Origin: Archaeoglobaceae archaeon
GTDB lineage: Archaea > Halobacteriota > Archaeoglobi > Archaeoglobales > Archaeoglobaceae
Assembly (NCBI GenBank): GCA_026986375.1
Contig: JALSOQ010000030.1
Location: 1-64,000 of the forward strand
Reading direction: 5' to 3'
DNA length: 64,000 nucleotides
The notes beneath the pieces were generated by a model. It had not been told where the DNA came from. It did not search any database and worked only from the letters and a program-made list of their open reading frames with translations. Positions within the stretch are counted from its first letter, which is position 1, and each line of letters starts with the position of its first letter. Shown here piece after piece: positions 58,479-64,000 of the stretch. The translations under genes and the position numbers were made by a program.

Positions 58479-59084
58479 ATGACAGAATGGATACCGATGG
58501 AGGTAAAAATGTGCTTTGATCACTTTTGGAATAGGCTACCAAAAACTGTAAAGCGTAAGGAGGATTTGGCTTTTGAAGTTTTTAGGGCGGTAATGAGCCG
58601 CAATTTAAGGTTAAAATACGAATTCGATGACGATACCGTGGCCAAACTGATAGATTGCGGTCTGATTTTAGATAAATACTCTAAGGACATGATAAAACAT
58701 CTCGTGGAAATCGCTGAGGATAGGATAAGCAAGGCAAACGAGCTTGAAAGGAAGGTTCTGGCGTTCTTTCTGAATTTAAAGCCTGAATATTGGTATGATT
58801 CCGGTGAATTTTGCACTTTGGGCACCTTTCAACGACTAACTGTGATATTCGACAGGATGTTCGATGAATGCTTGTTAGCCGAGGAGCATTTGACGGTGGG
58901 GCACAGTAATCTGGTATTCTGGGAGCTCGGAGATATTATGGTTAAACTTGGAATCGGCTACTGGATTCCTTACATTTCGAGCAGCTATCACGTTTATTTG
59001 GATTTCGTGATTCCTAAATTTTTATTCGATGTTCTTAAGCGAAGAGCTGAAGCACTGCCTAAAATCGACGGATTTGATGAGTGA
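58479..59084 (+). CDS. Hypothetical protein, partner of a likely nuclease
   Basis: I do not recognise this 201-residue protein. It appears almost fully helical and acidic, with aromatic-rich segments (LNLKPEYWYDSGEF, LGIGYWIPYISSSYHVY). No signal, membrane helix or metal cluster is visible. Stretch 58561-58620 holds 23 G/C in 60, lower than most of the window. The stop overlaps the next gene by four bases, so the two form an operon. A start at 58497 is also possible. Confidence 0.7.
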   Translation: MTEWIPMEVKMCFDHFWNRLPKTVKRKEDLAFEVFRAVMSRNLRLKYEFDDDTVAKLIDCGLILDKYSKDMIKHLVEIAEDRISKANELERKVLAFFLNLKPEYWYDSGEFCTLGTFQRLTVIFDRMFDECLLAEEHLTVGHSNLVFWELGDIMVKLGIGYWIPYISSSYHVYLDFVIPKFLFDVLKRRAEALPKIDGFDE

Positions 59085-59623
59085 TTTCAGAAATTTCGAG
59101 TAAAATCTCCAATGGCGATTTGATGCCCGAATTGCACACCATATACCTATCAAAGCACGGAGATATCAAACCAAAGAAGTTCGTATTGCCGAGAATCAGA
59201 GAACCGAGATGTGAACTCGATTTAATCTATCTCATAGGCAGATACTGGGATGTGATAAGGGAGAGAACGGGTCTGGAGGAAATAGTGTTTGTTGATAAGC
59301 ATTGGGATGCTGAAGGGATATATAGGGGAAGAAAGGTCAGAATTGAAGTAAAGCTTGATGCCAAGGACTTCGATAAGGATCCAACCAAAATAGATCTCCT
59401 AATTTGCTGGAAACTTACTCCAAGCGGTTCAATTCTTAAGCAACTGCCCCTGTATGGAAGAAATGATTTGTGGATCCATAAGTATAATTTAAAGGAGAAT
59501 GAAAAGGATTGTCTTAGAAATTTGTTAAAAAGAGGAAAAACCAATTTGGTTGAAGACTTAATTAAGGAGATATTCAGATGTGTTGGTATCGAAATTATAG
59601 TGCTAAGCGAAATTTTGAAGTGA
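59081..59623 (+). CDS. Predicted PD-(D/E)XK nuclease-like protein
   Basis: The 180-residue protein has a segment typical of restriction-endonuclease-like folds: an Asp in HWDAEGIYRG (about 67-76), followed by VRIEVKLDAKDF with Glu-x-Lys (about 79-90), then DLLICWKL (about 101-108). The first and last thirds are helical. No specific family is known to me. It is translationally coupled to the helical protein upstream and followed by mtnA on the same strand after 33 bases. DNA or RNA as substrate is unknown. Confidence 0.68.
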   Translation: MISEISSKISNGDLMPELHTIYLSKHGDIKPKKFVLPRIREPRCELDLIYLIGRYWDVIRERTGLEEIVFVDKHWDAEGIYRGRKVRIEVKLDAKDFDKDPTKIDLLICWKLTPSGSILKQLPLYGRNDLWIHKYNLKENEKDCLRNLLKRGKTNLVEDLIKEIFRCVGIEIIVLSEILK

Positions 59624-62193: not shown

Positions 62194-63054
62194 TCAGTGG
62201 CCGTAGAGTTCCTTTCTCCTCGCTTCGAGCAACTCCTCCCTAATCTTTCCGAACTCTGCGGCGGATTTTACCTTAACACCGTGCTCTTCGGCTTTCTTAA
62301 AAATCCGATCGATCCTTTCCCTCCACTTCAGATCCCTCGTTAGGTGGTGATCCAAAATTATCTCCCTGACTTTCGTCTTCTCCATCAGCTTGGATACGTT
62401 TTCGATCGACCTTTCGAGGAGCTTATTACCGAATATGTAGGGCTGATACGTCATCGGACCGTCCATAAAGACCACGTCCGGCTCGGATTCGACGATGAAC
62501 GCTATCTGATCCTCCTGCGTAGCCCCTTCGACGTCTGAAGTGTAAACGAAACGCTCCTTTCCGTCGTCTATGCAGACCTCCAAAACGAATCCCAATCTGC
62601 TGTCCTTTCCGTGAAATACCGGCTTGGAGAATACGATCTGAACATCCCCTAATTCAAAAACTTTCGAGTCCGCGAACTCGATTTTGGGCGGATTCTTCAA
62701 TTCTTTAAGCTTCTGGAGGAAATAGGCGGATCTTCCCATCTGACTTCTGTTTATCGCTTGGGTGGGATGTTTGGTCAGCAGAATTTTGCCGGCCAATACC
62801 TCCGGCTCGTTCGGGTTGTGGTGGTCGTAGTGGTAGTGCGTGATTATTACGACGTCGGCATTGAGAATTTCTTGCTTGATCTTTTGCCATAGCTCTTCCT
62901 TCCTCCTTATCTCTATTTCATGAGGAGGTAAACCGTATCTCTTCGGTCCCAGAGCAACGCTCGGATCTATGATGATTTTTAAGTCTTTAGTCTCAACTAC
63001 GGTGCACATGCTCCTCGCTCCGAACGAGTCGAATGCTATCGGCTTGATTTTCAT
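62194..63054 (-). CDS. Metallo-beta-lactamase fold hydrolase (UPF0282)
   Basis: The 286-residue protein has the metal-binding THYHYDHHN motif (about 76-84), YTSDVEGA and a late DHHLTRD. It matches the archaeal UPF0282 family of MBL-fold proteins with unknown substrate. The TATA-like CTAAATTTAAG near 63085 lies about 31 bases before ATG 63054. It is followed on the same strand by the thioredoxin-HEAT gene. Confidence 0.9.
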   Translation of the reverse strand: MKIKPIAFDSFGARSMCTVVETKDLKIIIDPSVALGPKRYGLPPHEIEIRRKEELWQKIKQEILNADVVIITHYHYDHHNPNEPEVLAGKILLTKHPTQAINRSQMGRSAYFLQKLKELKNPPKIEFADSKVFELGDVQIVFSKPVFHGKDSRLGFVLEVCIDDGKERFVYTSDVEGATQEDQIAFIVESEPDVVFMDGPMTYQPYIFGNKLLERSIENVSKLMEKTKVREIILDHHLTRDLKWRERIDRIFKKAEEHGVKVKSAAEFGKIREELLEARRKELYGH

Positions 63055-63137: not shown

Positions 63138-63557
63138 TTAATTATGAAACCTTATATCCTTTTTCTTGATATCCCTTAGCTCAAGTTCCACTCTTTCTTT
63201 TGAAATATTCTTGCTAAACGATTCGTAATAAAAAATCGCCACTATTAATCCTCTGTATCCCAGCGATCTAATGAGAGTGTAACATACCCTAATCTGTTCT
63301 GGTTTTCTCTTTGCATCCCTACTATCAAACTTTCCCGTCGTGCATTCAACTATGCAAACCTTATCCGGAAATATAAATATGCAATCACATCCTCCATCTC
63401 TGCCAAAGTGTCTATCTGCACATTTGTCGAATCTAATTTTGAGAATGTAGTTGGATGCTTTGATCACACAGCCGTCTATGTTATTGCCAAACTTAAAGCA
63501 ATTGTCATCGTTAATTCTATCTTTTAGCGCTTTAATCAGTTTCTCTATTTCTTCCAT
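63138..63557 (-). CDS. Small protein paired with an AAA ATPase, possible PD-(D/E)XK nuclease
   Basis: The 139-residue protein (from ATG 63557; a start at 63584 is also in frame) has a pattern like nuclease folds: GCDCIFIFPDKVCIVECTTGKF (Asp, then Glu with a Lys a few residues later). The hydrophobic strand after it, RGLIVAIFYY, fits the fold. The call is tentative. Its start overlaps the ATPase gene by 26 bases, so the two are co-translated. AT-rich compared with the central window. Confidence 0.6.
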   Translation of the reverse strand: MEEIEKLIKALKDRINDDNCFKFGNNIDGCVIKASNYILKIRFDKCADRHFGRDGGCDCIFIFPDKVCIVECTTGKFDSRDAKRKPEQIRVCYTLIRSLGYRGLIVAIFYYESFSKNISKERVELELRDIKKKDIRFHN

Positions 63558-64000
63558 GAATCTTCCTCCAAACTGCTTCTTCAACGTCAGCGTATTTGTT
63601 AGAGAGTTCCATTATAACAGATGAAAATTCCTCTTCTTCGATTCCCTCCTCTGTAACCCTTACCCCCTCAACCGTTCCGTCGAGCTTGAATCTGTATATT
63701 TTCAGGGATTCTGGATCTAAGCCTTCTTCTTCTCTATAACCTAACTTCTTCTTTTCCTCTGGACTTAGCTTGTTAAGTTTTATCAGGTTATCTAGCTCAT
63801 CAAGAATTATCGGACTGTGTGTGGTTATCAGAACATCCGCATACTTGCTGAGCATTGCCAAAGCCCTCGTAACTACACTCTGCATATACGGATGGAGATG
63901 GGTTTCCGGCTCTTCTAACACTATGAATGCTCTCTCTTCCTCTATAACATATCTCAGATAGGTTACGAGAGGAGCAAGCTCCCTAACGCCAGAATGGGAT
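63532..64000 (-). CDS. AAA-type ATPase (ABC/OLD-like, AAA_15/DUF3696), 5' part cut by window edge
   Basis: The C-terminal 155 residues are present: SHSGVRELAPLVTYL, Walker B IVLEEPETHLHP, and the switch motif ADVLITTHSPIILDEL. These belong to SMC/ABC-type AAA ATPases such as OLD and DUF3696 proteins. The Walker A part lies beyond base 64000. The downstream small gene overlaps its stop, a typical arrangement in defence or repair pairs, but no specific system is identified. Confidence 0.85.
   Translation of the reverse strand, partial: SHSGVRELAPLVTYLRYVIEEERAFIVLEEPETHLHPYMQSVVTRALAMLSKYADVLITTHSPIILDELDNLIKLNKLSPEEKKKLGYREEEGLDPESLKIYRFKLDGTVEGVRVTEEGIEEEEFSSVIMELSNKYADVEEAVWRKIHGRNRETD

Follow-up and report, generated by a model that had tools for sequence, protein, structure and literature searches.

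A probable archaeal defence pair: an ABC-type ATPase with an exchanged insert and a small, predicted PD-(D/E)XK-fold partner in Archaeoglobaceae

Among the known systems closest to the locus described here are PD-T4-4, which guards E. coli against phage (PMC9519451), and WonAB, which requires both of its genes, brings about abortive infection via a stop of translation, and has been proposed to be part of a wider family joining an ABC-ATPase sensor to a nuclease effector (PMC12137116). In archaea, according to a 2026 survey, defences are poorly characterised, and divergent systems may escape homology-based tools (PMC12988326). The gene pair analysed here is an archaeal branch of the class of ABC-ATPase sensors with restriction-nuclease-fold effectors that includes WonAB and PD-T4-4. 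Namely, we consider it probable that the pair is a two-gene antiviral defence cassette, in which an ATPase senses through its insert and a PD-(D/E)XK-fold partner cuts nucleic acid.

The window, that is, the whole 64,000-nucleotide stretch of DNA that was analysed (G000:C30:1–64000), belongs to the 1.46 Mb genome of a heat-loving archaeon of the family Archaeoglobaceae, and its contig, C30, runs on to position 68159. At its right edge, on the minus strand, lie the 3' part of the ATPase gene, coding for the C-terminal end (63532..64000), and the gene for the 139-residue partner (63138..63557), whose reading frame opens with an ATG and runs from 63557 to 63138. The overlap of 26 bases between the two frames that the earlier note had described is exact (63532..63557, minus strand), with the ATPase frame ending at 63532 and the partner starting at 63557. 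As that note had also supposed, the ATPase start lies beyond the window: extension to the right gives an intact frame of 479 amino acids whose ATG is found at position 64971 of the contig (L009:9971), and this rules out a genuine truncation. A Shine-Dalgarno-like GGAGG (63565..63569, minus strand) is located inside the ATPase gene, 7 nt ahead of the partner ATG, and translation of the two genes is therefore probably coupled. On the 5' side of the ATPase gene there is a TATA-like AACCTTATATTTTTGATATCC, and the gene upstream stops 37 nt short of the ATPase start. The G+C content of the pair is 0.40 and 0.35, against approximately 0.47–0.50 in the neighbouring genes. The pair is not inside a defence island; in the genus, wherever both flanks are present, it (or, in one genome, its remnant) sits between two metallo-beta-lactamase-fold genes. 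One of these, at 62194..63054 on the minus strand, is outside the pair and marks the conserved chromosomal site. The other, upstream (L009 10009-10728), matches Apyc1 (anti-Pycsar) with E 0.003, far below the cut-off, which probably reflects general metallo-beta-lactamase similarity only.

The ATPase carries a Walker A motif (G26-PGGTGKS33), a signature-like motif (R324-SHSGVREL332), a Walker B motif (L352-EEPETHLHP361) and an H-loop (T383-THSP387), the last two containing the LEEPETHLHP and TTHSP that had been pointed out beforehand, and the key residues of these motifs are invariant in an alignment of seven relatives. Profile searches match it to AAA_15 (4.2e-24) and AAA_21 (1e-13) of Pfam and to PD-T4-4_A (1.6e-34), AriA (2.9e-28) and PDC-M47A (1.4e-26) of PADLOC, with traces of SMC_N and RecN. 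The nearest models, PD-T4-4_A and AriA, both belong to anti-phage systems. The AlphaFold2 model (pLDDT 84.8, pTM 0.87) resembles, in Foldseek, the solved structures of PtuA from retron and Septu complexes, Rad50 and SMC heads, with E-values of approximately 1e-11 to 1e-9. Neither Pfam nor PADLOC profiles find a TOPRIM domain in the protein, which stops approximately 90 residues past the H-loop. In other words, this is an ABC-type ATPase similar to PtuA, AriA and PD-T4-4_A and devoid of a TOPRIM domain. The earlier description of it as OLD-like thus stands as regards the ABC-ATPase family and the EEPE and H-loop motifs and fails as regards the OLD-type TOPRIM, whose absence rules out that the protein is an OLD nuclease.

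The partner has no significant family match in Pfam or NCBIfam, and profile searches find no TOPRIM in it either; since it lacks such a family match, homology-based tools would probably miss the pair. Its AlphaFold2 model, made from seven sequences, reaches a pLDDT of 76.7 and a pTM of 0.75, with two of the five models below pLDDT 50. The Foldseek matches of this model in the PDB, each weak when taken singly (E-values of 0.017–0.3), are mostly PD-(D/E)XK nucleases, and they include the BspD6I nickase, arenavirus cap-snatching endonucleases, Cdn1, Cas4, VC1899 and AF1548. The seven partner relatives also give weak profile matches to CARF_PDDEXK, NERD, Card1_endonuc and PDC-M29B. What is more, the protein has the motif C57-D58 ... 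E71-x-T73 ... Q88, in which D58, E71 and Q88, together with the alpha/beta fold match, fit a PD-(D/E)XK core with Thr73 at the position of the canonical Lys. Predicted fold, motif and weak profile matches all agree, and they point to a PD-(D/E)XK nuclease fold, as had been suspected from the sequence. Fifteen residues are invariant in all seven partners (C20, D28, C30, D44, C46, G56, C57, D58, E71, G75, D81, A82, Q88, C92 and R122), and a dN/dS of about 0.06-0.3 shows purifying selection on the gene. Together with the conserved pairing, this selection rules out a chance reading frame as the source of the partner. Of its 139 residues, eight are cysteines, five of them (C20, C30, C46, C57 and C92) among the invariant ones, and a candidate metal or Fe-S site at these positions is possible.

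The pattern of Glu and Lys after an Asp, on which the earlier suspicion of a nuclease had been based, is present as D58...E71-C-T-T-G-K76, except that the Lys comes five residues past the Glu and the E-x-K position holds a Thr. This replacement of the catalytic Lys is the main problem for the proposed nuclease mechanism, and the activity of the partner could be lost or altered by it. One can argue, accordingly, that in this clade the partner keeps the nuclease fold and is catalytically dead or otherwise non-nucleolytic, serving as a nucleic-acid-binding or inhibitory subunit of an ATPase that acts alone or with another effector. E-x-T does replace E-x-K in five of the seven sequences, namely those from the window, from the three congeners and from G147. 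However, D58, E71 and Q88 are invariant, purifying selection acts on the gene, and the members from Methanoperedens (ECK) and G249 (EIK) retain Lys at the canonical position, where it was seen in L019 and L022. Moreover, the position of K76 is occupied by K or R among the Thr-bearing forms, which makes K76 a candidate stand-in for the catalytic Lys; migration of this residue is known in the PD-(D/E)XK superfamily. On balance, we regard a non-cutting partner as unlikely, albeit as the most serious of the alternatives, and retain a nuclease that may use a displaced Lys.

How does the pair compare with the described systems? It shares with PD-T4-4 the gene order, the size and fold of the ATPase together with a similar C-terminal extension, and a partner with C-D ... 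[D/E]-x-K ... Q. It differs in that its partner is 139 rather than approximately 209 residues long, is Cys-rich and carries E-x-T. The ATPase scores 118 bits with PD-T4-4_A, with its best stretch at residues 281-461, as compared with 304-856 bits for plasmid members, and none of the seven partners matches PD-T4-4_B at E<=1. Because the ATPase falls below member-level scores and the partner lacks a PD-T4-4_B match, the pair is not PD-T4-4 proper. With WonAB and the "OLD-ABC ATPase + novel REase" operons it has in common the missing TOPRIM, variable inserts, a C-terminal extension and a small PD-(D/E)xK nuclease, a likeness that rests on the published description, in which WonAB is bacterial and WonB keeps its catalytic Lys, K71 (PMC12137116). 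PDC-M47, a PADLOC candidate system, is likewise an operon of an ATPase (1.4e-26) and a small nuclease, the latter with C-D ... E-M-K; its PDC-M47B profile finds no match in the archaeal partner. PARIS (AriA-AriB) has a related ATPase (2.9e-28) but a TOPRIM-like AriB, whereas the effector here is PD-(D/E)XK-like. Finally, OLD, Gabija GajA and Septu PtuA share the ABC-ATPase family, the EEPE and H-loop motifs and a PtuA-like fold, but OLD and GajA have a fused TOPRIM and Septu an HNH partner, and the pair in the window has neither. The earlier expectation of a likeness to antiviral ATPase-nuclease families was thus borne out, the nearest ATPase models being those of PD-T4-4 and PARIS.

Similar arrangements recur around more distant ATPases. 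In six archaeal cases (L059, L062–L066), the ATPase gene is directly followed by one for a protein of 158–194 amino acids with C-D … E-x-K; these pairs are of the same class, with partners that differ from that in the window and are longer. In two others the partner was unreadable: L060 is a 223-residue ATPase fragment in the stretch searched, and in L061, from genome G292, the N-terminus of the ATPase lies at the contig edge, which cuts the locus. The plasmid ATPases retrieved with the window ATPase belong to PD-T4-4 (L047 of E. albertii and L049 of Klebsiella pKPN6) and to PDC-M47 (L048 of Annamia), and their partners also bear C-D … [D/E]-x-K. Cys-Asp is the sole invariant pair in an alignment of 16 partners, and most of the sampled partners have the signature C-D…E-x-K…Q, which offers a means to recognise the effector across archaea and bacteria. 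A profile-profile comparison over the motif block between the window family and the partners of related ATPases gave E = 2e-4; with the three bacterial partners alone it was weak (E 0.017) and became clearer only after the archaeal partners were added. The locus has, in sum, the composition of the class: an OLD-like ABC ATPase that lacks TOPRIM and has inserts as well as an extension at its C-terminus, next to a small PD-(D/E)XK-fold protein. It is this partner fold, along with the recurring C-D…E-x-K partners at distant archaeal, PD-T4-4 and PDC-M47 ATPases, on which the assignment as an archaeal branch is based.

Within the genus, the ends of the ATPase and the nuclease are approximately 75–98% identical, and ATPase residues 51–230 only 19–64%. 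A close pair that shows the contrast is L016 and L017 (G117 and G273; these and L018, or G136, were equated by identical scores and lengths, and all are metagenome-assembled genomes of Archaeoglobaceae). In particular, the identity of their DNA is approximately 95% in the upstream stretch and the first ~48 codons, falls to ~50–60% over codons 49–341, and then returns to mostly 85–100% through the end of the nuclease gene. Synonymous divergence (dS) is saturated in the insert, as against 0.10 for the ATPase N-terminus, 0.14 for the nuclease and 0.26 for mtnA. At four-fold sites, 48 of 63 are identical in the ends (76%) and 6 of 37 in the insert (16%; Fisher p = 6e-9), and the boundaries, at codons ~48 and ~342, are sharp. 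From the contrast at four-fold sites, the saturated dS and the sharp boundaries it follows that the middle of the ATPase gene (codons ~49–341; approximately L016 8145-9023 versus L017 370-1248) was replaced by recombination among close relatives, the ends and the nuclease being left nearly identical. For L016 and L017, plain positive selection is ruled out as the source of the divergence, since at the boundaries synonymous sites shift as sharply as amino acids. One could object that the comparison uses metagenome-assembled genomes; chimeric assembly is unlikely, however, because separate assemblies give two allele types at an otherwise conserved site. The insert of a pseudogene in a further genome of the genus, G107, is of the L016 type.

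The insert spans the region from Walker A to Walker B, and related systems vary between these two motifs, as Insert 1/2 (PMC12137116). Because it occupies this variable region, the insert is likely the sensor. The natural swaps, in which different inserts are combined with constant ends and a constant nuclease, single it out as the likely specificity part, and the swapped alleles are ready-made pairs for testing this specificity. More tentatively, one may imagine an immune ATPase that exchanges its recognition insert as a cassette and so gains new specificities with an unchanged effector, this effector being a Cys-rich PD-(D/E)XK variant with a displaced Lys and, possibly, a bound metal.

The genes for the ATPase and its partner are also neighbours in six further genomes, at identities down to 25% for the nuclease and 36% for the ATPase: at the same site in three other genomes of the genus (L016, L017 and L018) and, further afield, in Methanoperedens (L019), G147 (L032) and G249 (L031). 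In G107, a fifth genome of the genus, the ATPase gene at this site (L034 4467-5545) is a pseudogene disrupted by changes of frame and by stop codons, and the end of the ATPase gene and the entire nuclease gene are missing. The partner profile has strong matches in 6 of the 394 genomes of the phylum and marginal ones in four others. A match in G278 proved to be due to chance, as it falls in a PAS-type sensor protein of ~600 residues; the proteins behind weak nuclease matches in G206, G332 and G341, two of which were read, are different PD-(D/E)XK-like ones of larger size, and these matches served only as a fold hint. No close relative of the partner turned up in viral contigs, phage records or plasmids, the only match being a partial one in Sinorhizobium plasmids (E = 0.03).

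Could the pair serve genome maintenance instead, as a RecF- or SMC-like repair ATPase with a processing nuclease? The SMC_N and RecN traces, the structural matches to Rad50 and SMC heads and the stable chromosomal site within the genus would fit such a role. However, most of the genomes searched (59 of the class, 394 of the phylum) lack the pair, it has decayed in a congener, its insert recombines, and the top PADLOC matches are defence ATPases; we therefore find a repair function improbable. The same patchy spread, the pseudogene and the low G+C make a housekeeping set, which the earlier note had named as grounds for refutation, unlikely. As for a selfish addiction module, or one akin to toxin-antitoxin systems, with the ATPase restraining the nuclease and the pair being kept without specific antiviral benefit, the overlap of a small effector with a large regulator, the low G+C, the patchiness and the toxicity of excess WonB in WonAB (PMC12137116) could be so explained, but a hypervariable, recombining insert suggests recognition of changing targets and related pairs do protect against phage (PMC9519451, PMC12137116), which renders it very improbable.

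Defence is, consequently, the most likely role of the pair. Computation establishes the gene pair and its recurrence, the motifs and fold class of the ATPase, the prediction of a nuclease fold and the insert exchange; from the WonAB and PD-T4-4 relatives we infer the order of events, complex formation, trigger, substrate and antiviral role. Namely, judging by its fold, the ATPase would form an ABC-type head dimer, which in the ATP-bound state would hold the small nuclease by the conserved C-terminal extension. The long middle insert would sense an invader or a cue of infection, and the binding or hydrolysis of ATP would then free, align or activate the partner. Once activated, the latter would cut nucleic acid, be it DNA, tRNA or rRNA, and the invader would be destroyed or the infected cell halted.

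Elsewhere in the window, at 58479-59623 on the plus strand, two genes for proteins of 201 and 180 amino acids overlap by 4 nt and have no Pfam match. The 180-residue product contains IVFVDKHWDAEGIYRGRKVRIEVKLDAKDF, which resembles the D...E-x-K motif of restriction nucleases.
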